Origin: Pseudothermotoga thermarum DSM 5069
GTDB lineage: Bacteria; Thermotogota; Thermotogae; Thermotogales; DSM-5069
Length of the DNA: 64,000 bases
NCBI RefSeq assembly: GCF_000217815.1
Contig: NC_015707.1
Location: 1,662,014 to 1,726,013 of the forward strand
Reading direction: 5' to 3'
A model generated the notes under the pieces. The model did not search any database. It was not told the DNA's origin and saw only the letters and a program-made list of their open reading frames with translations. Positions 5,881 to 56,785 of the stretch are shown in pieces (positions within the stretch are counted from its first letter, which is position 1; the number at the start of each line of letters is the position of its first letter). A program made the position numbers and the translations under genes.

Positions 5881-6254
5881 TCTGCTTTGCCTTTCTCTCG
5901 TGTCTTACTGACCAACGCATAGATCACTTTCTTCCTCTTAACCTCATTTATGTTCACCTTCATCTCGTCTATAGCTACTACTGCATTGCCTTCTATCTTC
6001 TCAGCATTCATCCTCGTCCACCATTTCCTCAAGGCTTCATGACTGACTCCAATTATGGCTGCTGCCTTCCTTAATGCAAGTTCATACTTTCGCCTCATGT
6101 GGAACTCTTTGTCTTTGAAAAAGGTTTGGTATAATTTGGTATAGGTACTCGGTGATATTTGTTGTTGTAACTTTCATCTTTACGGGAACCTCCTTTCGGT
6201 GAGAAGAGTTGGTTCCCGTTTATTTTATCTTTCCCGGCTTAAGTTGACACCTCC
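5881..6254 (-). mobile_element. IS6/IS240-like element, copy 1, truncated
   Basis: The right end cttaagttgacacctcc (6238-6254) and the first part of the transposase frame (starting at ATG 6098) match the other two copies at 17054-17657 and 56077-56785. The left part is cut at about 5881 by the IS256 element, leaving a 74-residue frame ending KGKAET. It shares with copy 2 the short form of the gene (MNAEKIEG and NINEVKRKK junctions) that lacks 12 and 30 bases present in copy 3. The hairpin and leader-ORF region upstream of the transposase are kept. It cannot be mobile by itself. Confidence 0.85.
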
Positions 6255-17053: not shown

Positions 17054-17657
17054 GGACCTGTCAACTTAAGAAGGAAAACTGCACTAATAGAAGAAATGGA
17101 AATAGCCACTTAACTATGTCCTCATCCCTCCTCTTGTACCATAACCTGCTTATGTTAAAACGCCTCAGCCTGTACCTTTTTATCCCTATCACACTCTCAA
17201 CAAGACTTCTTTCCCCAAACCTCTCATGCTCGTGTTCCCAATATCCCATATTCTTTTTTCTCGCTTCCCAGTACCATGGCCCTGCTTTGCCTTTCTCTCG
17301 TGTCTTACTGACCAACGCATAGATCACTTTCTTCCTCTTAACCTCATTTATGTTCACCTTCATCTCGTCTATAGCTACTACTGCTTTGCCTTCTATCTTC
17401 TCAGCATTCATCCTTGTCCACCATTTCCTCAAGGCTTCATGACTGACTCCAATTATGGCTGCTGCCTTCCTTAATGCAAGTTCATACTTTCGCCTCATGT
17501 GGAACTCTTTGTCTTTGAAAAAGGTTTGGTATAATTTGGTATAGGTACTCGGTGATATTTGTTGTTGTAACTTTCATATTCACGGGAACCTCCTTTCGGT
17601 GAGAAGAGTTGGTTCCCGTTTATTTTATCGTATTTCCCGGCTTAAGTTGACACCTCC
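17054..17657 (-). mobile_element. IS6/IS240-like element, copy 2, internally deleted (604 bp)
   Basis: The ends ggacctgtcaacttaag (left) and cttaagttgacacctcc (right) are inverted repeats differing at two positions, identical to those of copy 3. The element is 105 bp shorter than copy 3, through deletions of 12, 30 and 63 bases that all keep the transposase frame. Flanking octamers show no duplication. It lies at the 5' boundary of a truncated sugar-binding-protein gene, whose upstream part is missing on the other side. So an adjacent deletion took place with or after insertion. Confidence 0.92.
17061..17498 (-). pseudogene. Defective IS6-like transposase (copy 2)
   Basis: An open frame of 145 aa from MRRKYELALRKAAAIIG. 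Compared with copy 3 it lacks four codons near EEIF, ten codons (GYCWYVWIAF) after NIN, and 21 codons between REK and GPWYW. The last gap includes the middle catalytic Asp of ITDKG. The first Asp (VAIDEMKV) and the Glu (SLVESVIG) remain. The protein cannot be a working DDE transposase, although the frame stays open. Confidence 0.88.
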
Positions 17658-44208: not shown

Positions 44209-44955
44209 TCAAACGCACTCAACCATTCCAAACCCCATAGCGTTTTTTTCACCAAAGCCGGCCTCATAACCTATCTTGATCAGTTCAACATCACCTTCAA
44301 CTTCAAATGGAAACAGGCAGGCTTTGATGAATGTATCTTTTATTTGAATAAGCTTGGTAATTTTACTTCTTGAGGAAATATATTCCCAATCTGGATAAAT
44401 CTTCACACTGCCTGTAGATTCTTTGCCATATATCGCCATAAATTTCTTTTTCAGATTTCTTTCAAACGCATTTTGGTACTCTGGATCACTTGGTACCAAA
44501 TATTTATGCGATAACTTACCTTTGAATTCCACCGGGATGCTCAAAACCATTGGTGAAAGCATTTTGAACTTCATCCTACTTGAAAATTCGATGTTTGTTG
44601 GTACCTCAATTTCAACGATCTCGAAATTCTCGCCGCAAATTTCCAAATATGGTTTTTGCAAAAGAGAACTCATGAAAGCCTTCAAAAAATCGTCGTTGAT
44701 CGAACTGACAAACCAAGTTCCCTTGCAACCTTCTTTCAATATCAAAACATCTTTGTTAACAGTGTACATAGTCAAAAAAAGTTGTGAAAACGTGAAAAGT
44801 TTGAAACCGCCGTATCCTGATTCGTGCAGAATACTGGCGAGAGCTTCGTCTGCTATTTTCAAGCGCTTGTATATGAAAGCAGCCAGATGGTAGTTGTAGT
44901 TTAAAGGTATTGAGCAGGGATAGGCAGAAAAGGAAATTTTCAGCCTCAAAAGCAT
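44209..44955 (-). CDS. cas6: CRISPR repeat endoribonuclease Cas6
   Basis: Cas6 cuts the array transcript in each repeat, leaving an 8-nt 5' handle. A protein of 248 aa with two RAMP folds: PLNYNYHLAAFIYKRL and ASILHESGYGGFKLFTFSQL at the N-terminus, and the C-terminal glycine-rich loop GYEAGFGEKNAMGFGMVE. It is on the strand opposite to the other cas genes, about 200 bases from cas4, so it has its own promoter. A decayed relative lies at 43.1-43.4 kb. Confidence 0.93.
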   Translation of the reverse strand: MLLRLKISFSAYPCSIPLNYNYHLAAFIYKRLKIADEALASILHESGYGGFKLFTFSQLFLTMYTVNKDVLILKEGCKGTWFVSSINDDFLKAFMSSLLQKPYLEICGENFEIVEIEVPTNIEFSSRMKFKMLSPMVLSIPVEFKGKLSHKYLVPSDPEYQNAFERNLKKKFMAIYGKESTGSVKIYPDWEYISSRSKITKLIQIKDTFIKACLFPFEVEGDVELIKIGYEAGFGEKNAMGFGMVECV

Positions 44956-45155: not shown

Positions 45156-45647
45156 ATGGTAACAGGTTCATCCTTGCTCAGCTACACAGTTTGTAAAAGG
45201 CAAGCTTGGTTGATGCAGAGAAATGTTGAGCCAGACCAAGCGAACGAATACCTCGTGATCGGAAGACTCATACATTCTGAGTCATATAAGGATAAAGCTA
45301 TCAGAGAAATTACCTTACCAGGTATGAAAATAGATCTTGTCTGGGAATCCGGAGGTTTGACAATTGTCGGCGAAATCAAGAAATCTTCTCGGTATCTTAA
45401 AGGAGCAAAGTTACAATTGTTATTCTATCTTAGCGAATTACGAAAAAGGGGAATAAAAGCAGTTGGGAAAATATTGATACCCAAAGAAAAAAAACAGATC
45501 AACGTGGAACTTACAGAAGAAAACCTTAAAGAGCTTTATACAGCCATTGAAGAGCTTGAGGAATTATCAAAGATTGAAAAGATTCCTCCAAAGAAGCGAA
45601 CCAGCTTTTGCACGAAATGTGGCTTTGAAGAATTCTGCTGGTCATGA
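45156..45647 (+). CDS. cas4: CRISPR adaptation protein Cas4
   Basis: A protein of 163 aa of the RecB-nuclease family with an iron-sulphur cluster. The first cysteine is in YTVCKRQAWLM (about 11), and the last three are in FCTKCGFEEFCWS at the C-terminus. The nuclease motifs are HSE (about 47), DLVWESG and GEIKKSSRYLKGAKLQLLFY (E, K and Q of motif III). Cas4 trims pre-spacers and helps choose those with a PAM. It is the first gene of the rightward cas run, with gaggtgagcgt before the ATG. Confidence 0.95.
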   Translation: MVTGSSLLSYTVCKRQAWLMQRNVEPDQANEYLVIGRLIHSESYKDKAIREITLPGMKIDLVWESGGLTIVGEIKKSSRYLKGAKLQLLFYLSELRKRGIKAVGKILIPKEKKQINVELTEENLKELYTAIEELEELSKIEKIPPKKRTSFCTKCGFEEFCWS

Positions 45648-45658
45648 GGTGGTAACCT

Positions 45659-46639
45659 TTGGAACCGGTGTACATTTTCTCAAGCGGTTTTTTGAGAAGA
45701 AAGAACGAAACCCTTGTTTTGGAAACAGAACAAGGCAGCAAGTACATTCCAGTTGAAAATGTCTCTGAAATAAAGATCTTTGGCGAAGTTGATATCAATA
45801 AAAGAGCTCTTGAATTTCTCACCGAAAAGAGTATTGTTGTTCACTTTTTCAATTACTATGGGTACTACGTAGGTACTTTCTATCCTCGTGAACATCTGAA
45901 CAGCGGCTATGTGATCTTAAAGCAGGCTGAATTTTATCTTAACCCCGCAAAAAGGTTAAACCTGGCAAAAAAATTTGTGTTCGGCGCCATTAAGAACGCG
46001 ATAAACGTTCTTAAATCCCGAAACGAGAATCTTGAATCAGAGATTAAGAAAATTCAGGAACATCTATCGTTAATAGACAAGTGTGATTCAATTGAGCAAT
46101 TAATGGCTATCGAAGGTAATGTAAAGGAAATCTATTATTCCTGCTTTGACAAAATCCTTCAAGGATCAGATTTTGTGTTTGAAAGAAGGACAAGACAGCC
46201 TCCTGAAAACGAATTGAATGCAATGATTAGCTTTGGAAACTCGTTGTTGTATACTTCTGTTCTTTCGGAAATATACAAAACACACCTAGATCCAAGGATA
46301 GGTTATCTTCATACAACGAATAATCGCAGATTCACATTAAACCTAGATGTTGCTGAGATTTTCAAGCCAGTCATTGTTGATAGGTTGATCTTTGCTCTTG
46401 TAAATAGAAAACAAATAAAGAAAAATGATTTTGAACCAATTGTCAACGGACTTGTTTTAAAAGAAAAAGCAAGACAAACTTTCATTCGAGCCTTTGAAGA
46501 TAGACTTAAAGAAACTGTTTACCATCGAAGTCTAAAACGAAACGTTTCTTATAGAAGCCTGATAAGAATGGAAATTTATAAAATAGAAAAACATTTGATG
46601 GAAGATGAGGAGTACAAACCGTATATTTTCGAGGGATAA
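45659..46639 (+). CDS. cas1: CRISPR integrase Cas1 (type I-B)
   Basis: A protein of 326 aa that integrates spacers with Cas2. The metal site is Glu in PPENELNAMISFGNS (about 184), His in RIGYLHTTNNRRFTL (about 217) and Asp/Glu in NLDVAEIFKPVIVDRL (about 227-231). The start is TTG at 45659 with gaggtgg upstream. It is followed by cas2 after 2 bases. Confidence 0.97.
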   Translation: MEPVYIFSSGFLRRKNETLVLETEQGSKYIPVENVSEIKIFGEVDINKRALEFLTEKSIVVHFFNYYGYYVGTFYPREHLNSGYVILKQAEFYLNPAKRLNLAKKFVFGAIKNAINVLKSRNENLESEIKKIQEHLSLIDKCDSIEQLMAIEGNVKEIYYSCFDKILQGSDFVFERRTRQPPENELNAMISFGNSLLYTSVLSEIYKTHLDPRIGYLHTTNNRRFTLNLDVAEIFKPVIVDRLIFALVNRKQIKKNDFEPIVNGLVLKEKARQTFIRAFEDRLKETVYHRSLKRNVSYRSLIRMEIYKIEKHLMEDEEYKPYIFEG

Positions 46640-46641
46640 AG

Positions 46642-46902
46642 ATGTACGTAATAGTTTGTTATGACATAGAAGTTGAAAGAGTCGCAAAAGCTTTAAAAAT
46701 TTGTAGGAAGTATCTAAACTGGGTACAAAACTCGGTTTTTGAAGGACAAATAACAAGAGGAAATCTTGAGCGATTAAAACATGAACTATCAAAAATCGTC
46801 AAAGATAGCGATAGTATCAGATTCTACATATTCCAAAGTGAAGATGTCTTCGAACTCGAAATTTTGGGACAAGACAAATGCATGAACGATCTTATAATTT
46901 GA
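46642..46902 (+). CDS. cas2: CRISPR adaptation protein Cas2
   Basis: A protein of 86 aa of the ferredoxin-like fold: MYVIVCYDIEVERVAKALKI, then WVQNSVFEGQITRGNLERLK and DSIRFYIFQ. It bridges two Cas1 dimers during spacer capture. The gene is preceded by a good RBS (agggataaag is weak; translation is probably coupled to cas1). Confidence 0.96.
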   Translation: MYVIVCYDIEVERVAKALKICRKYLNWVQNSVFEGQITRGNLERLKHELSKIVKDSDSIRFYIFQSEDVFELEILGQDKCMNDLII

Positions 46903-46921
46903 AAACTTGGAGGTGGTACAC

Positions 46922-48649
46922 TTGATAGATAAACTTATAAGACTGTCAAAGATTTATCCACCAAAGGATTTGATTGAAAACCTTTCCAGACCCTTAACTG
47001 CGAAACAGGGCTTTGCGATCAAAATAAGCAGGGATGCTTTTGAGGATGTCATTGTGATAGATCAAACGAAAAAGCTGCTTTTTTACGACCAAAAAGGAAA
47101 TGTTTCTGGGAAAAGTCCAACTGTGAAAATCAGCGGTTCTAATGTTGATGATTTCAAAAAAGTCGTTAAAAAAGTTGCTGAGTTTTTCAACGAAACGGCT
47201 TTACAGAACGTTTATGAAACCATCGTCGGTAACCTAGAAGCCATAACTGAAAAAGCTTTTCAAAAATATTCTGAAAGCTTAGGTAAAGACAAACCAAGTT
47301 TCTTCACCGTGATAATTGATGGAAAATTTCCAGAGGATCATCCTATAGTAAGGGAAATTTTTGTGGAAAGAGTTATGGAGAAATCAAAATCTGGAATCGA
47401 CGGAATCTGCGCAACATGCGGTAAGAAAACAAAAGTCACAGCCAGTGCCAATCAAGTTTTCAAGTTTATAACTTTTGACAAACCAGGATTTTGTCCAAAT
47501 TTAGATAAATCGCAAGCTGTAAAAGTTTTCCCAATATGCGAAAATTGCCTTTTGCTGCTGGAGAATGCCTCAAATTTGATCAAAAACAAGTTAACCTTTG
47601 ACTTTGTGGGAAGCAACCTTTGGATTATCCCATCCATCGTTGGAGATGATCCAGAAATACTCAAAGCTGTAACGGAAAAAATCGCTTCTATAGGGATTGG
47701 CAGTGTTGAAATAACCGCATCGAAAACACTCCGAGATTTTTCAAAACTGGAATTAAGCGCAGAAGAGATTCTTTCAGAAGAAGGGGAAAATGTTCTCTAT
47801 GATTTTCTGCTCATTAAGCAGTCTCAAAGTCAACAGAGAATAGAGCTTCATGTAAGCGAAGTTTCCCCAACAAGGTTGAGAAAACTTTATGAATGTTCCA
47901 AAAGTATCTCTAAGCTTTTTGAGGAAAATGGTTTGGATATTTCAATGGAGAAAAGTTCTTTCAAACCGGGATTTGAACAGCTTTGGTATTTGTTTGGAAA
48001 ACCAGCTGCTGATGAGGCAGGTAGGAAAGAATATCTCAACCTCGTTGAAGCTTGTTTTACACAAAATCAGTTTAACTATGACAGATTTCTTTGGTACATC
48101 ATGAAAAAATTGAGACAAACTTTCCACCAGTTTCCCGAAAATCTCAAAAATGACGCTCTGAGCGCGTTTGGAAACTTGCTTTACTTGACAGCGATAAATG
48201 TTTTACGGCCAACCCAAGGAGGTGCGAAAATGCCTCAAGAAGAGGGTATTTTCGATAGTTTCTTTGACAAATTCAAAGAGTTCTTCGACGAACCTTGGAA
48301 AAAAGCAGTCTTTTTAACAGGTGTTCTTGTCAAACGAGTTATGGAAGTACAGGAATCAAGAAAGGGAAAGTCGCCTTTTCTCAAGAAACTTGGTGGGCTT
48401 AAGATGAATTACAACCAAATTAAGTATTTACTCACAGAATCTTGGAAAAAATTGCAGCAGTACGATGCGTTCCAAAGTAGTGATGAAATATTGTTCTCCG
48501 AGGCATCAAAGTATTTCCTGCAAGCTTCAGATGTTAAAGCCAGTATTGATTTGCTAAACTTTGTTCTTACTCTTGGCATGACTTTCCCCAGAAATCTTCT
48601 GCTTAAAAACTTTGAAAGAAAGGTTGAGGGGGTGTCTGTGAATGAATAA
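46922..48649 (+). CDS. cas8b: Cas8b (Csh1/TM1802 type), large subunit of the I-B Cascade
   Basis: A protein of 575 aa from TTG 46922 (ggaggtgg 6 bases upstream; the frame extends to a TTG at 46907 inside that RBS). It has a zinc-finger-like region CATCGKKTKVTASANQVFKF, then FCPN and ICENC, typical of the TM1802 family. Cas8b recognises the PAM and holds the target. The C-terminal part is helical, as expected for the fused small-subunit region that type I-B can also make by internal initiation. It overlaps cas7 by 8 bases. Confidence 0.92.
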   Translation: MIDKLIRLSKIYPPKDLIENLSRPLTAKQGFAIKISRDAFEDVIVIDQTKKLLFYDQKGNVSGKSPTVKISGSNVDDFKKVVKKVAEFFNETALQNVYETIVGNLEAITEKAFQKYSESLGKDKPSFFTVIIDGKFPEDHPIVREIFVERVMEKSKSGIDGICATCGKKTKVTASANQVFKFITFDKPGFCPNLDKSQAVKVFPICENCLLLLENASNLIKNKLTFDFVGSNLWIIPSIVGDDPEILKAVTEKIASIGIGSVEITASKTLRDFSKLELSAEEILSEEGENVLYDFLLIKQSQSQQRIELHVSEVSPTRLRKLYECSKSISKLFEENGLDISMEKSSFKPGFEQLWYLFGKPAADEAGRKEYLNLVEACFTQNQFNYDRFLWYIMKKLRQTFHQFPENLKNDALSAFGNLLYLTAINVLRPTQGGAKMPQEEGIFDSFFDKFKEFFDEPWKKAVFLTGVLVKRVMEVQESRKGKSPFLKKLGGLKMNYNQIKYLLTESWKKLQQYDAFQSSDEILFSEASKYFLQASDVKASIDLLNFVLTLGMTFPRNLLLKNFERKVEGVSVNE

Positions 48650-49580
48650 TTTGAATGAAGTAATCAGAAATCGTTCTGAACTGCTGTTTCTCTACGATGT
48701 CAAATGGGCAAATCCCAATGGAGATCCATTGGAAGAGAACAAACCAAGGATTGATGAAGAAACCGAAAGATGTATTGTAAGCGACGTAAGGCTTAAAAGA
48801 ACCATTAGAGACGAGTTAATGGCAATGGGTGAAACTATCTGGGTATCCGGAGAAGCGGTAACACCTGATGAAAGGGCAAAAGAACTTGAGATAACAAGCG
48901 AAGAAGACGCAACAAAGAAGTGTATCGACGTACGGTTGTTTGGCGGAGTTATGCCCATCAAACCGAAAGAAAAGGGAGCAAAAGGGCAATCGATCAATCT
49001 CACAGGTCCTGTGCAATTTCGATTCGGTATGAGCCTTCATCCAGTGAAAGTCGTGTTCATGCAAGGTACAGCTGCTTTCACAAGCGAAGCAAAAGCTGAA
49101 CAGAGAAGCTTTAGAGAAGAATACGTGATCCCATACGCGCTGATATGCTTTTACGGTGTGGCCAACGAGAATAGTGCCAAAAAGACAAATTTGACAGAAC
49201 AAGATATGCAAAAACTTCTAAAGGCGATGTGGAACGGAACAAAGAATTTGATCACTCGCTCGAAAATGGAGCACAACCCAAGACTTCTTTTAAGAATAAT
49301 CTACAAAGAAGGGCAAAACTTTCACATCGGAGAATTGGACAGCTATATATCTTTCGTGGCAGAAAAAAGTCCAAAAGAGCTAAGGGATATTTCCGATTTG
49401 CAATTGGATGTAACGATGCTAATGGATGCTTTAGGGAAGAATAAAGATAAAATAGAAAAAGTACAATTGATCATAGATGAGCGACTAAAAATGCTTAAAA
49501 ATAATTCTCCAACATGCATCGTAAGAGAACTACAAGAACTTGGAATAAAATTCGAAAATATAGCACAGCTGATGGGATGA
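48642..49580 (+). CDS. cas7: Cas7 (Csh2), backbone subunit of the I-B Cascade
   Basis: A protein of 312 aa of the DevR/Csh2 RAMP family. Features are LLFLYDVKWANPNGDPLEEN followed by PRIDEETERCIVSDVRLKRT, and the central VRLFGGVMPIKPKEKGAKGQ. Several copies coat the crRNA. The start is ATG at 48642 inside the end of cas8b; the stop overlaps cas5 (ATGATGA). Confidence 0.95.
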   Translation: MNNLNEVIRNRSELLFLYDVKWANPNGDPLEENKPRIDEETERCIVSDVRLKRTIRDELMAMGETIWVSGEAVTPDERAKELEITSEEDATKKCIDVRLFGGVMPIKPKEKGAKGQSINLTGPVQFRFGMSLHPVKVVFMQGTAAFTSEAKAEQRSFREEYVIPYALICFYGVANENSAKKTNLTEQDMQKLLKAMWNGTKNLITRSKMEHNPRLLLRIIYKEGQNFHIGELDSYISFVAEKSPKELRDISDLQLDVTMLMDALGKNKDKIEKVQLIIDERLKMLKNNSPTCIVRELQELGIKFENIAQLMG

Positions 49581-50284
49581 TGAACATGAAGATTTTGGTT
49601 TTTGATGTCAAAGGAAAATTTGCGCTTTTTAGAAGATCTTATACAACCACAAGCTCAACTACTTATCCTTTTCCACCTAGGACTGCTATTTGTGGAATAA
49701 TAGCAGCAATACTTGGAATAGAAAATCCACCCGACAGACCAAGCTGGTATCTACGAAAGTTTGACAATGCGAGAATTTCGATAAGACTTTTGAATCCGAT
49801 CAAGAAAATCCGGCTTGGGATAAACTACGTTGAGACAAAACCTGATAAAGACACCCCAAGAACGCAGATTCTCGCCGAGATCATAAAAGATCCGGCATAT
49901 AGAATTTACATCTCTGAGTTCGAAAAATTCGACGAGCTTGTTAAGTTAATTCGCTCTCATGAATGTGTTTTCACCCCGTACCTTGGTCTTAGTGAATTCA
50001 TCGCCGATTTCAGTTATGTTGGGGTTTTTGAAGCAAAAAAAGTATCTTTACCTACTTTAGTCAACAGCGTCGTCAAAATAATCGATGGAACTAAATCGTT
50101 CCCCGAAAGAGGAACCGCGCTGATCCGTGAAAGAATGGTTCTTAGGATGGACGATAAAAGAACCCCGTTAGAATTTGCAGAGTACTGGGTTGAAAAAAAT
50201 GGTAAGGCTTTGCAAATACTTGAATACAGCGAAGACATTTTGGAAATAGAGGAGTTGAACGAACGAATATGCTGGATCGACTAA
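49577..50284 (+). CDS. cas5: Cas5 of the I-B Cascade
   Basis: A protein of 235 aa from ATG 49577; a longer frame exists upstream, but it would lie inside cas7. The Cas5 N-terminal RAMP signature is KILVFDVKGKFALFRRSYTT, then YPFPPRTAICGIIAAILG. Cas5 caps the 5' handle of the crRNA. It overlaps cas3 by 16 bases. Confidence 0.93.
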   Translation: MMNMKILVFDVKGKFALFRRSYTTTSSTTYPFPPRTAICGIIAAILGIENPPDRPSWYLRKFDNARISIRLLNPIKKIRLGINYVETKPDKDTPRTQILAEIIKDPAYRIYISEFEKFDELVKLIRSHECVFTPYLGLSEFIADFSYVGVFEAKKVSLPTLVNSVVKIIDGTKSFPERGTALIRERMVLRMDDKRTPLEFAEYWVEKNGKALQILEYSEDILEIEELNERICWID

Positions 50285-52497
50285 AGTCTCACGAAGATAG
50301 ATATTTAATTGACCATCTTGACAGTGTAACAAATTTAATGCTTAAAAAAGGCAAACTAATAAATTGGGAATTTTTTGATTTGCCCTGGCAGAAAATGGAG
50401 AAAATTCTAAAGGTTTGTGGATATTGCCACGATTATGCTAAGGCAACCTCATATTTTCAAGAATACATTGAAAAACGAAGAAAAAAGGGCGTGGAAACAA
50501 ACCACGCCCTGCTTTCAGCGATAGTCGGCTTTGAAGCTTCAAGAAAACTTGGACTTGATGGAAAAACATCTGCCTTCATATATTTGGTGATAAAGCATCA
50601 TCACGATAGGCTTGATAACTTTGGACCATTTGAAATTGAACACATGCAAATACTTCAAAACCAAATCAAAACGATCTCAGATGAATTCAAAAGGTGGGTT
50701 GAGCAGAAACTAGGGATTGAATTAGAATTATCCCTTGAAAACGAAATCAAGAAAATAAAGAGGCTCTTTCTGCTCAACACAGTTGATGAAAGGGATTACC
50801 TTTTTGTCCACTTGTTGCTTTCACTTTTAGCTTCTGCAGATATGGAAGATGCAGCTTTTCATGGTTTAGCGCCTTCTTGGCCCGAGGGAGGGCTAACTGG
50901 CAGCTTGATAGATAATTACGTGTCAAAAATTCCTCGGAAAACTAGTATTGATGAACTTCGTCAAAGATTCTACAAAAGCACCTTAGAAAAATTGAAAAAA
51001 GCGGCAGGCAATGTTTTTTCTGTAACAGCACCAACTGGTGTTGGAAAAACACTTGTAAATCTTAGAATAGCTGCTGAACTTGTGGGAGAAAACGGTTTGA
51101 TTGTTTATTGCTTACCATTTATAAGTATCATTGATCAAACAGTAAAGGTTATAGAAAGATTATTTTCAAGTGAAATCGATGCCAATATACTGTTACCGTA
51201 TCACCATCTAGCAGATCCAGAATACAAAGAATACGAATATGACAAGCCAAACGAACAGCAAACGAGGGTTTTGATCGAAGATTGGCACTCTAAAATAGTT
51301 GTTACTACTTTCGTGTCGTTGTTTGAATCATTATTTACAAATCGAAAAGTACCATTCCTTCACAAGCTTTCTAATGCTGTAATCATCTTGGACGAAGTGC
51401 AAGCAGTTCCTTACAAATATTGGGAGCCAATCAAGATCATGCTTAGCATGTTAAGTAAATTAGGGACAAAAATAATTCTTTCGACTGCTACACAGCCAGG
51501 TATATTGGACAATTGCACCGAATTAGCCGATCGAAATCTTTTTAAAGATTTGGATAGAACAAAAATAAACTTTTGTGGGGAAATCTTTATCGAAGATTTC
51601 GCTGAGAAGCTTTCAAAACTCACCAAGGAAAAACTAATCAAAGGGCAAAAGATGCTGGTTATTTGTAACACTATTCGAGAATCACAAAATCTCTACTTGG
51701 CATTGAGGGAGGCTATAGGAAGTAAAGACATCTACTATCTTTCCGCAAGTGTAATTCCAAAGCATAGATTGGAAAGAATATCCAAACTAAAATCGCTGTC
51801 AAAACCCGTGATTTGCATAAGTACACAAGTCGTTGAAGCTGGTGTAGATTTGTCATTTGATTATGTTATTCGTGACGAAGGACCTATGGATAGCGTAGTG
51901 CAGGCAGTTGGAAGGTGCAATAGAAATTTTGAAAAAAAGCTTGGTATCGCAGATATATTCACGGTCAAAGATGAAAGGAGAGCCTTAAGTAAGTACATCT
52001 ACGATTCCATAAACATCGACGTCACACGTAGAATACTTGAGAAAAACAAAACTTTTTCGGAGCAGCAATTCCACGGTGTTGTTGAAGAGTACTTTCAAGA
52101 AATCAAATTGATATCAAATCAAGATAAAGAAAATCTTTGCGAAAAGCTTAGAAACCTCATGTTCGATGAAATAGCAACCAGTTTTCGACTCATAGAAGAT
52201 AAAGGTGAAACAGTGGCAGTATACATCGAGTATGATGACGAAGCAATTCAGCTACGCAAAGAGTATAACCAAATCGTCGAAGATAACAGCTTGACAAAAT
52301 TTGAAAAACTAGCTAAATTATCTAAAAAGTATAAGCAAATGTCATCTTACATTGTTGATGTTAGAATAGACAAAAGACTTGTTGAAAACGCCCTTGTAGT
52401 CGAGCATGGGCTAATAGTGGTTCCTAGCGATCAACTCGATCTGTGGTACGATAAAACCACTGGTTTTGGAAGGAAAGATGGAATCATTGAAATATAA
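50269..52497 (+). CDS. cas3: Cas3 HD nuclease-helicase
   Basis: A protein of 742 aa. The HD domain comes first: ICGYCHDYAKATSYFQEYIE-like region near 50-65 and later KHHHDRL (about 119-125). The SF2 helicase follows: Walker A TAPTGVGKTLVNL (about 253-265), DEVQ in IILDEVQAVPYKYW (about 373-386), STAT-like motif III in LSTATQPG, and motif VI QAVGRCNRN (about 544). Cas3 is recruited to target-bound Cascade and degrades DNA. HD and helicase are in one chain. It is the last cas gene; the leader follows. Confidence 0.96.
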   Translation: MLDRLKSHEDRYLIDHLDSVTNLMLKKGKLINWEFFDLPWQKMEKILKVCGYCHDYAKATSYFQEYIEKRRKKGVETNHALLSAIVGFEASRKLGLDGKTSAFIYLVIKHHHDRLDNFGPFEIEHMQILQNQIKTISDEFKRWVEQKLGIELELSLENEIKKIKRLFLLNTVDERDYLFVHLLLSLLASADMEDAAFHGLAPSWPEGGLTGSLIDNYVSKIPRKTSIDELRQRFYKSTLEKLKKAAGNVFSVTAPTGVGKTLVNLRIAAELVGENGLIVYCLPFISIIDQTVKVIERLFSSEIDANILLPYHHLADPEYKEYEYDKPNEQQTRVLIEDWHSKIVVTTFVSLFESLFTNRKVPFLHKLSNAVIILDEVQAVPYKYWEPIKIMLSMLSKLGTKIILSTATQPGILDNCTELADRNLFKDLDRTKINFCGEIFIEDFAEKLSKLTKEKLIKGQKMLVICNTIRESQNLYLALREAIGSKDIYYLSASVIPKHRLERISKLKSLSKPVICISTQVVEAGVDLSFDYVIRDEGPMDSVVQAVGRCNRNFEKKLGIADIFTVKDERRALSKYIYDSINIDVTRRILEKNKTFSEQQFHGVVEEYFQEIKLISNQDKENLCEKLRNLMFDEIATSFRLIEDKGETVAVYIEYDDEAIQLRKEYNQIVEDNSLTKFEKLAKLSKKYKQMSSYIVDVRIDKRLVENALVVEHGLIVVPSDQLDLWYDKTTGFGRKDGIIEI

Positions 52498-52927
52498 TTC
52501 AATTTGTAACTTTTCAGTAATATTGAAGCCGTGAACCTTGTTTGCTTTTACGAATAAGGCTTCTATTCTGTAAAAAAGTGCTAATTGTTTTGTGCTTTTA
52601 ACTTTAATTTTTGGTCTTTGAAAAGTTAATATTCATTTCAATCTGAAAGAATTTCCAACAACTTCGAATCTACTTTCAATGTTACGAAAAACCCCTAAGG
52701 AAGGCTTTTTTCTGGTAAACCTGACATAGAGGAAAAAATGCCGGAGGTGCACCCCTGACTTCAACTGTCACATGAACCCCTTCATTACATTAAAATCGCT
52801 TATTCAAACCTACTGCAATTTGTTTGTTAGACGTGTCTAATGTTTGTTTTTCAACTAAAATCTGAACATAGTTTTGATTCAAGAATACCTGTGCAAAATC
52901 AACAGCAAATGCTATAATAAACAAAGG
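52498..52927 (+). promoter_or_regulatory. CRISPR leader
   Basis: About 430 bases of AT-rich DNA without a convincing gene lie between the cas3 stop and the first repeat. TATAAT occurs at 52913-52918, ten bases before the first repeat, so transcription would start at or within a few bases of that repeat. The -35 region is weak. The far end of the array carries the degenerate repeat, which agrees with this side being the leader. Confidence 0.8.
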
Positions 52928-55550
52928 GTTTCAATCGAACTTAAGAGGGATGGAAACATGTGCGTGAATTTCCACGCCACTTTACTGCCTCCTGGTTTCA
53001 ATCGAACTTAAGAGGGATGGAAACCGCTTGTTGGTATACAACAGACTCAAATGCTGGCATGGTTTCAATCGAACTTAAGAGGGATGGAAACCGGTTATAG
53101 TGCGCCGGGCAGGTATACGGTATCGATGTTTCAATCGAACTTAAGAGGGATGGAAACCAGGTTGCCTACCGAAGTGTATGGACACATTGAATTGTGTTTC
53201 AATCGAACTTAAGAGGGATGGAAACTGCTAAGTGCGCTTGAAAAAATTTATATGAATTTAAGTTTCAATCGAACTTAAGAGGGATGGAAACCTCAAGAAG
53301 ACACAACATTGTTTGTTGCAGCCTGCACGTTTCAATCGAACTTAAGAGGGATGGAAACACGCCTTTTTCAAATGTTTTCTTCTCATTCCTTGGCGTTTCA
53401 ATCGAACTTAAGAGGGATGGAAACATGTGTGTAGTCGATCTTATTGTCCGAAAGCCACCTTGTTTCAATCGAACTTAAGAGGGATGGAAACCGACTATGA
53501 TACGTACTTGTTCGTTTTGGCTAAAGAAGTTTCAATCGAACTTAAGAGGGATGGAAACCCGTTCCTTCATGATTACCTCTAAAAACTCCCACTCGTTTCA
53601 ATCGAACTTAAGAGGGATGGAAACACTTTAACCTTCCTTTTACATTTCATTAACCCAAATGTTTCAATCGAACTTAAGAGGGATGGAAACGATTTTTTTT
53701 GAGGACATTAATCATACCCCCTTGTAAGTTTCAATCGAACTTAAGAGGGATGGAAACGGAGCATAAATACTGCTTTTTCGAGGTTGTACATTCGTTTCAA
53801 TCGAACTTAAGAGGGATGGAAACTATACTTCTTCTTCAACGAAGTCGTAAGATCCTACAGTTTCAATCGAACTTAAGAGGGATGGAAACGGCGACTTAGT
53901 AGCACAACTAGAATACTTAGATAGAGGTTTCAATCGAACTTAAGAGGGATGGAAACTAGTTCAAAACGTGTTATTCCGGATCGTAATTCTTTGTTTCAAT
54001 CGAACTTAAGAGGGATGGAAACCTTTTTCAAGAGATTAAGCAACTGCAGGAAGAAGTTCGTTTCAATCGAACTTAAGAGGGATGGAAACACCAGTCTGCG
54101 CTGCACGGAAAATCGATATAATCTTCGTTTCAATCGAACTTAAGAGGGATGGAAACAAATGTGATTGAAATAAGGGAGGCGTGAGCCTCCCTTGTTTCAA
54201 TCGAACTTAAGAGGGATGGAAACACGATTCTGTAACTTGACAAGTTATAGATAAGGTATAGTTTCAATCGAACTTAAGAGGGATGGAAACCATAGCCCCT
54301 TGTCACTTATCGCCAATATTTTTTTAGTTTCAATCGAACTTAAGAGGGATGGAAACTATTGTCTGCAAGATATTACATGGCACAAGCTTGCCGTTTCAAT
54401 CGAACTTAAGAGGGATGGAAACGCGTGCCTATGCTGTTGAAGCTCAGCCACGAATAGTGGTTTCAATCGAACTTAAGAGGGATGGAAACAATGGCATTTG
54501 CTCGGTTTCTCCTTCTCCGAATACCGTTTCAATCGAACTTAAGAGGGATGGAAACGATTTTCTTTGAGGACATTAATCATACCCCCTTGTAAGTTTCAAT
54601 CGAACTTAAGAGGGATGGAAACCCTTGCCGGTGTAGAGAACCGCTTTTCGGTCTAAATGTTTCAATCGAACTTAAGAGGGATGGAAACCCGTGTTTGGTA
54701 GCTTGCCATATTGAAGCTCAAGGTGTTTCAATCGAACTTAAGAGGGATGGAAACTTGGCACAATGTAACACCTTACCGTTCCGCTGCGTTGTTTCAATCG
54801 AACTTAAGAGGGATGGAAACACCATTTCGTTTCCAACATTTTACTTTTTCTTAACAGTTTCAATCGAACTTAAGAGGGATGGAAACAATCGTGGCCGCAT
54901 ATGCACATGTCATTGAGGGAACAGTTTCAATCGAACTTAAGAGGGATGGAAACTGAACCTGATTTACTTTATGGTACTGATCGGCGTTAAGTTTCAATCG
55001 AACTTAAGAGGGATGGAAACTTGCGTGTTCTCTCGAATACATTTGCGCTATTACGATGTTTCAATCGAACTTAAGAGGGATGGAAACCTAGAACCTAATG
55101 TTGAAAGAGATGTGTGCTTCTGGGTTTCAATCGAACTTAAGAGGGATGGAAACCAAACCACCGGTGGCTTAAGTCCCCTTGCAACTAACGTTTCAATCGA
55201 ACTTAAGAGGGATGGAAACGTTTCGAGCAGAAATATGTCTACCCGCTCCGCTACCCGTTTCAATCGAACTTAAGAGGGATGGAAACCAGTGATCCCAAGC
55301 GAGTAATCGTGACAACATGTTCAGTTTCAATCGAACTTAAGAGGGATGGAAACTTCTGCTCAAGCCACTTTTCTGTCGAAAGGTGGCGCGTTTCAATCGA
55401 ACTTAAGAGGGATGGAAACACATTTGCAGAAATGCGATACGAAATAAGAGACGGAGTTTCAATCGAACTTAAGAGGGATGGAAACCAGACGGGGTGAAAA
55501 AGAGGAGGGGTTTAGATGTAGTTTCAATCGAACTTAAGAGGGATGGAAAA
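52928..55550 (+). CRISPR. Type I-B CRISPR array, 40 repeats and 39 spacers
   Basis: The repeat is 30 bases, beginning gtttcaatcgaacttaag and ending agggatggaaac; the last 8 bases (atggaaac) are the expected crRNA handle. Repeats start at 52928, 52995, 53062, 53128, 53196 and so on to 55521, with a unit length of 65-68 bases and spacers of 35-38 bases. The internal repeats I compared are identical. The last one ends ggaaaa, so it is the trailer end. Spacers 12 (53691-53727) and 25 (54556-54592) differ at one base. Spacer 19 (54157-54193) contains a perfect 9-bp hairpin. Confidence 0.99.
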
Positions 55551-55798: not shown

Positions 55799-56092
55799 TT
55801 GTGGGAAAGTTTGCTCAAAAAAAGGATTACAAAGGAAATGTTTGTAGAAACATTCGAACTTAAGAATAGAGAATTTGACCTCGAGGAAGATGAAAAAGCG
55901 CTTGATTTTGTCTGCGGCGGACTCAATAGTGGCAAAGATATTGAATTTAATTTTCAAACTTTATGCCATTTACATTTTGCCGGAGTGCCAAAAGACAAGG
56001 ATAGGAAAACATTGGTTACAGTTCTAATGAAGCGCAAATCAAAATTTGGTTTTAAATCTATGATAACTAAGGAATCGGACCTGTCAACTTAA
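55799..56092 (+). pseudogene. Unknown gene truncated by IS copy 3
   Basis: An open frame from TTG 55799 encodes about 91 native residues (WESLLKKRITKEMFVETFEL, then FDLEEDEKALDFVCGGLNSG and HLHFAGVPKDKDRKTLVTVL) and then runs into the left end of IS copy 3 at 56077, which supplies the stop. A TGA stands directly before the TTG and no RBS is clear. The 5' side may be missing too. I do not recognise the family. The stretch 55551-55798 before it shows only scattered short frames and the oppD-like fragment. Confidence 0.45.
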
Positions 56093-56785
56093 GAAGGAAA
56101 ACTGCACTAATAGAAGAAATGGAAATAGCCACTTCACTATGTCCTCATCCCTCCTCTTGTACCATAACTTGTTCCTGTTGAAACGCCTCAGCCTGTACCT
56201 CGTTATCCCTATCACGCTCTCAACAAGACTCCTCTCCCCAAACCTCTCATGCTCGTGTTCCCAATATCCCATATTCTCTTCGCTCGCTTCCCAGTACCAT
56301 GGCCCTTTGTCCGTTATTATCCTCAACTTACCTGTCACTCTCTTCTTCACCATCTTCATCACCAAGCTCGCTTTGTCCTTCTCTCGCGTTTTGCTGACCA
56401 ACGCATAGATCACTTTCTTCCTCTTAACCTCAAACGCTATCCATACATACCAGCAGTAACCGTTTATGTTCACCTTCATCTCGTCTACAGCTACTACTGC
56501 ATTGCCTTCTATCTTCTCAGCAAATATCTCTTCTTTCATTCTTGCCCACCATTTCCTCAAGGCTTCATGACTGACTCCAATTATGGCTGCTGCCTTCCTT
56601 AATGCAAGTTCATACTTTCGCCTCATGTGGAACTCTTTGTCTTTGAAAAAGGTTTGGTATAATTTGGTATAGGTACTCGGTGATATTTGTTGTTGTAACT
56701 TTCATCTTTACGGGAACCTCCTTTCGGTGAGAAGAGTTGGTTTTTGTTTATTTTATCGTATTTCCCGGCTTAAGTTGACACCTCC
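56077..56785 (-). mobile_element. IS6/IS240-like element, copy 3, full length (709 bp)
   Basis: Terminal inverted repeats ggacctgtcaacttaag (56077-56093) and cttaagttgacacctcc (56769-56785) match except at two positions. It contains the longest form of the transposase gene. Copies 1 and 2 lack 105 bases in total relative to this one. Flanking octamers (aaggaatc and ataagttt) are not duplicated. On the transcribed strand the sequence before the gene holds an AGGAGG ribosome binding site, which in copies 1 and 2 falls partly in a hairpin arm. In this copy the opposite arm is mutated. Confidence 0.9.
56084..56626 (-). CDS. IS6/IS240-like DDE transposase (copy 3)
   Basis: A protein of 180 aa from ATG 56626. 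The helix-turn-helix-like start is MRRKYELALRKAAAIIGVSH. The catalytic residues are Asp in VAVDEMKVNING, Asp in IITDKGPWYWEA and Glu in SLVESVIG, about 30 residues after the second Asp, close to the D-D-34-E of the IS6 family. The frame may start earlier in effect. An ATG with AGGAGG at 56705 opens a 31-codon frame that ends within the first codons of this one, in a different frame, so coupling or frameshifting is possible. The family assignment is by motif only. Confidence 0.82.
   Translation of the reverse strand: MRRKYELALRKAAAIIGVSHEALRKWWARMKEEIFAEKIEGNAVVAVDEMKVNINGYCWYVWIAFEVKRKKVIYALVSKTREKDKASLVMKMVKKRVTGKLRIITDKGPWYWEASEENMGYWEHEHERFGERSLVESVIGITRYRLRRFNRNKLWYKRRDEDIVKWLFPFLLLVQFSFLS

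Follow-up and report, generated by a model that had tools for sequence, protein, structure and literature searches.

Two spacers differing by a single seed base in the type I-B CRISPR array of Pseudothermotoga thermarum

When a CRISPR array holds the same spacer twice with one base changed, the pair may record two encounters with one mobile element or a copying event within the array itself. The chromosome of Pseudothermotoga thermarum DSM 5069 raises this question with spacers 12 and 25 of an array located in the window analysed here, a stretch of 64,000 nucleotides. Should both versions turn up in viruses, a single chromosome would reveal in which order CRISPR escape and the renewed response took place, at single-base resolution; if the pair were a mutated duplicate, it would show how such a pair can imitate a record of coevolution. 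Moreover, the type I-B seed of this clade has recently been measured biochemically, and a pair of natural spacers distinguished by seed position 7 alone provides a ready interference test.

The type I-B locus and the orientation of its array

Judged by its gene families and repeats, this is a complete and ordinary type I-B CRISPR-Cas locus. In the 64-kb window, cas6 comes before cas4-cas1-cas2-cas8b-cas7-cas5-cas3, and the array begins 430 bp after cas3. The genes include cas8b/csh1, cas7/csh2 and cas5b together with cas3 and cas6, as is characteristic of type I-B, and the adaptation module cas4-cas1-cas2, while the array displays 30-nt repeats, an 8-nt handle ATGGAAAC and spacers of ~36-37 nt. 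The features are as follows.

44209..44955, minus strand: cas6 (TIGR01877, E 7.8e-38)
45156..45647, plus strand: cas4 (TIGR00372, PF01930)
45659..46639, plus strand: cas1, type I-B (TIGR03641, E 1.7e-136)
46642..46902, plus strand: cas2 (TIGR01573, PF09827)
46907..48649, plus strand: cas8b, TM1802 family (TIGR02556, PF09484)
48642..49580, plus strand: cas7, Csh2 (TIGR02590, E 1.5e-98)
49514..50284, plus strand: cas5 (TIGR02592, E 1.1e-41), given from the start of the open reading frame; the real start may be later
50269..52497, plus strand: cas3, HD and helicase (TIGR01587, TIGR01596)
52498..52927, plus strand: putative leader, between cas3 and the first repeat
52928..55550, plus strand: type I-B CRISPR array, 40 repeats of 30 nt and 39 spacers of 35-38 nt

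No reverse transcriptase domain was reported in Cas1 by Pfam, and capture of spacers from RNA by an RT-Cas1 was therefore rejected. Cas8b shares 37% identity over ~557 amino acids with its homologue in genome G090, which we take to be Thermotoga maritima MSB8. The T. maritima type I-B system (Cas8b1/TM1802) has gene families in common with the present locus as well as a 30-nt repeat with an AAC end and the end of the crRNA handle (PMC13199841). Unlike in T. maritima, there is one array here, directly behind cas3; no second array of the same repeat was found in the genome (2,039,943 bp, one contig), and a search of the GTDB contig collection found the repeat sequence in no other species.

The repeat, GTTTCAATCGAACTTAAGAGGGATGGAAAC, occurs in 39 perfect copies from 52928 onwards, so that the internal repeats amount to 1170 nt without a change, and the terminal repeat (55521-55550) has one mismatch, its last base being A instead of C. 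Spacers of 36 and 37 nt are about equally frequent, and the last one, spacer 39, is the shortest (35 nt). Upstream, TGCTATAAT lies 12 bp before the first repeat and a GG stands at the leader-repeat junction. This layout, a TATAAT box and a terminal GG, is also that of the upstream flanks of Thermotoga arrays, and local alignment scores of the leader against these flanks were not above those of shuffled sequences. The promoter-like box, the terminal repeat, the crRNA handle and the position in the operon place the leader on the left, and the mismatched terminal repeat accordingly marks the trailer, or old, end on the right. As new spacers enter at the leader, spacer 12 was acquired after spacer 25, and in both of them position 7 falls at the seed end.

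Spacers 12 and 25 and the origin of near-identical pairs

The two spacers, numbered from the left (leader) end, are as follows.

53691..53727, plus strand: spacer 12, the younger copy, 37 nt, GATTTTTTTTGAGGACATTAATCATACCCCCTTGTAA, T at position 7 (window 53697, genome 1715710)
54556..54592, plus strand: spacer 25, the older copy, 37 nt, GATTTTCTTTGAGGACATTAATCATACCCCCTTGTAA, C at position 7 (window 54562, genome 1716575)

Both have the same length and boundaries, and their sole difference is the T or C at position 7, which bears out to the base what the initial annotation had noticed. They lie 13 units apart among unrelated neighbours, as had likewise been observed. The local score of the pair is 34, compared with 10 for the next-best pair, and no other similar spacers were found in the array. 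Since only ~4e-18 such pairs would be expected, chance similarity is excluded. The array copies are the only two occurrences at up to 3 mismatches in the whole 2,039,943-bp genome, and a self-target elsewhere in the genome was rejected on this ground. Near-identical spacers with an identical PAM-side boundary, as seen here, are what a re-capture would be expected to show.

Related arrays display both duplications and re-captures. The comparison covered 773 spacers from the type I-B arrays of 11 Thermotogota genomes, where spacers 12 and 25 are the only pair within one genome to differ by one base. The relatives hold 21 full-length duplicate pairs within a genome, all exact, that is, 0 of 21 with a substitution in a small sample; among near-identical spacers common to different genomes, 1 of 13 has one. 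Most of the exact duplicates belong to a single genome, G007, and are adjacent or arranged in blocks, and its arrays L086 and L112 display runs of as many as three tandem copies and a repeated block of four units. The same genome contains exact single-unit duplicates 8 and 4 units apart with different neighbours (spacers 62/70 and 10/14, respectively). Other pairs differ in ways that mark them unmistakably as separate captures of one site. In genome G093 (loci L121 and L123), spacers 7 and 12 of array 1 share start and length and differ at 6 positions, reading TASFTALVPAS and SASFTALIPAS in the plus-strand frame from base 3, which amounts to two conservative amino-acid changes in one frame, while spacers 7 and 26 of array 3 have diverged and are shifted by one at the start. 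An overlapping pair in G095 is shifted by 12 at the start with one difference within the overlap, and a pair in G090 is identical in sequence but 37 and 36 nt long. In addition, spacers 36 and 85 of genome G008 (locus L087) match when one is read on the other strand, with a 3-nt indel between them, and spacers 80 and 81 of the same array, which lie side by side, were taken from similar hairpin (terminator-like) sequences.

Given these observations, spacers 12 and 25 probably arose from a single protospacer that was captured twice, independently, in different variants of one element. Spacer 25, with C, would have been captured first from a virus or another mobile element, and spacer 12, with T, later from the same protospacer in a variant of that element. 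Several lines of evidence favour this reading: the common start, the 37-nt length, the single difference and the distance of 13 units among unrelated neighbours; a complete locus with cas1, cas2 and cas4; the clear same-site re-captures in relatives; and the 21 duplicate pairs in relatives that lack any substitution. Furthermore, the perfect internal repeats bound the mutation that could have accumulated in the array, as 1170 unchanged nucleotides put the probability of even one change in 74 nt at ~17% or less. The pair resembles spacers 7 and 12 of G093 array 1 in its common start, later capture and variant sequence, and departs from them in that one base differs, within the seed. Re-capture as a phenomenon is already known, and the SpacerPlacer reconstruction treats both "reacquisition" and "independent acquisition" as established classes of event (PMC11472070). 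Two captures remain the best-supported interpretation, as the initial annotation had proposed, on the strength of the re-captures in relatives and of mutated duplicates being found nowhere else in the set. Its argument from the neighbours is insufficient, however: that different neighbours rule out duplication is too strong a claim, as relatives hold single spacers duplicated exactly at a distance of 4 or 8 units whose neighbours differ, and these duplicates weaken the case for two captures. It is also weakened by the absence of either variant outside the array, and the identical length of both copies would have only a ~50% chance under re-capture.

Alternatively, the site may have been captured once and its repeat-spacer unit copied within the array, after which position 7 mutated in one of the copies, a sequence of events that we regard as rather unlikely; the weights given to this reading and to two captures are judgements, not computed posteriors. 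Copying could proceed by recombination or slippage between repeats, either as a block duplication followed by deletions or as a transfer from a related array. Such a course requires no virus variant, and the exact duplications in related arrays, which comprise non-adjacent single units as well as blocks, likewise place the same spacer twice in one array. Duplication also dominates published array reconstructions: 695 duplications were counted against 8 reacquisitions among 24,090 spacers, a disproportion that weighs against two captures, and deletions occurred at 374 times the per-site mutation rate (PMC11472070), a ratio that implies a mutation in ~9% of duplicate pairs before either copy disappears. 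However, the copy would have to end up 13 units away, in a place that shares no further unit with the first, unlike the mostly adjacent or block-wise duplications of G007, and then mutate in an array whose internal repeats show no mutation, when none of the exact duplicates in relatives has done so. The mutation would also have to land by chance in the seed, which makes up 16-19% of spacer positions, although this argument from the seed is in part post hoc. That the spacers are truly identical and the difference is an error of sequencing or assembly, conceivable as a single assembly is at hand and the site adjoins a T run, is highly improbable, as the difference is a clean substitution and not a change in homopolymer length, and the genome is a single contig in which all 39 internal repeats were read perfectly.

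Seed position 7 and the question of escape

The initial annotation went further and saw "escape and renewed immunity" in the pair, which is one reading of it. In T. maritima type I-B Cascade, mismatches at positions 1-5 and 7 led to little or no binding, whereas a mismatch at position 6 was without effect and one at position 8 intermediate (PMC13199841). The loss of binding at position 7 supports a functional effect of the T/C difference, and virus escape at this position would be plausible. If a later virus carried the T version, its pairing with the crRNA of spacer 25 would contain an rC-dA mismatch. Type I-E systems often tolerate a seed change to A or T, with rC-dA accepted at position 2 and slow at position 1, and a target that escapes direct interference by virtue of a single mismatch still primes (PMC13122317). 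Priming would accordingly be a natural route to re-capture in the present array. Usually, priming yields new sites around the old one, and an exact re-capture by this route would presumably need a favoured site.

It could be speculated, as a step beyond two captures and a weaker one, that the change at seed position 7 weakened the crRNA of spacer 25 and that the altered version was therefore captured, through partial recognition (priming) or in a new infection. The array as an ordered record, in which an older spacer is followed by a renewed version after a seed escape mutation, with the mismatched crRNA priming re-capture at or next to its own target, is a tentative proposal. A similar situation has been described for viruses of hot-spring Synechococcus, likewise a natural thermophile population, where targeted sites carry single-base, coding-silent changes; there the viral variants were seen in the virome, whereas here neither version was found outside the array (PMC2612747). 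An equally tentative possibility is that variants of the element co-circulated and were captured twice without escape, position 7 being neutral and the site a hot spot of acquisition; this is two captures minus the escape step, and its likelihood is contained in that given to two captures. The frequent tolerance of single seed mismatches to A or T in type I-E (PMC13122317) is consistent with such neutrality, and in G093 the diverged re-captures make clear that sites are sampled again from variants whose changes lie outside the seed. On the other hand, the older spacer should then still have protected its host, and the T. maritima Cascade binds little or not at all with a mismatch at position 7 (PMC13199841).

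The captured site and the surroundings of the array

In the 37-nt site itself, the T/C change is synonymous in two readable frames, which would also suit a neutral difference. The plus-strand frame reads IFFEDINHTPL and then stops; on the minus strand, AAGGGGGT lies seven bases before an ATG, giving the gene start MSSKKI. This may point weakly to foreign coding DNA under protein constraint, the argument being weak because third-position changes are often expected by chance.

Viromes and Thermotogales prophages had been suggested as sources of both versions, yet neither version was found in IMG/VR, GTDB genomes, phages, plasmids or 103 Thermotogota genomes. The exact 27-mer core of spacers 12 and 25 had no match in IMG/VR or GTDB, two 18-mer cores gave a single chance match in IMG/VR (22 of 37 bases alike), and no protospacer was detected by BLAST against phages and plasmids or at up to 3 mismatches in the 103 Thermotogota genomes. 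Degenerate scans were run for three open frames, two of them without matches, and the four matches of the gene-start pattern scan were rejected as unconvincing. The other spacers behaved alike: against the 103 Thermotogota genomes, the best matches of all array spacers were at chance level, none of the best-match loci being matched at more than 75% over the full spacer length, and the newest spacers 1 and 3 had no match in IMG/VR. To our knowledge, the viruses of this clade are poorly sampled, and the absence of a protospacer therefore says little.

Elsewhere in the array, spacer 19 (54157-54193) contains a perfect hairpin, AAGGGAGGC-GTGA-GCCTCCCTT; its source appears to have been a terminator-like element, and self-folding of the crRNA could weaken this spacer. 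Around 300 bp beyond the array, positions 55854-55865 match 12 nt of the repeat core exactly (TCGAACTTAAGA); the window has no other such match beyond the array itself, and this one may be the remnant of a repeat or a chance occurrence. At 0.5 kb past the array, the minus strand carries a fragment of an IS240-type DDE transposase (56084-56626), and a 300-nt stretch present at both 5882-6181 and 17282-17581, 99% identical, seems to belong to the same element.
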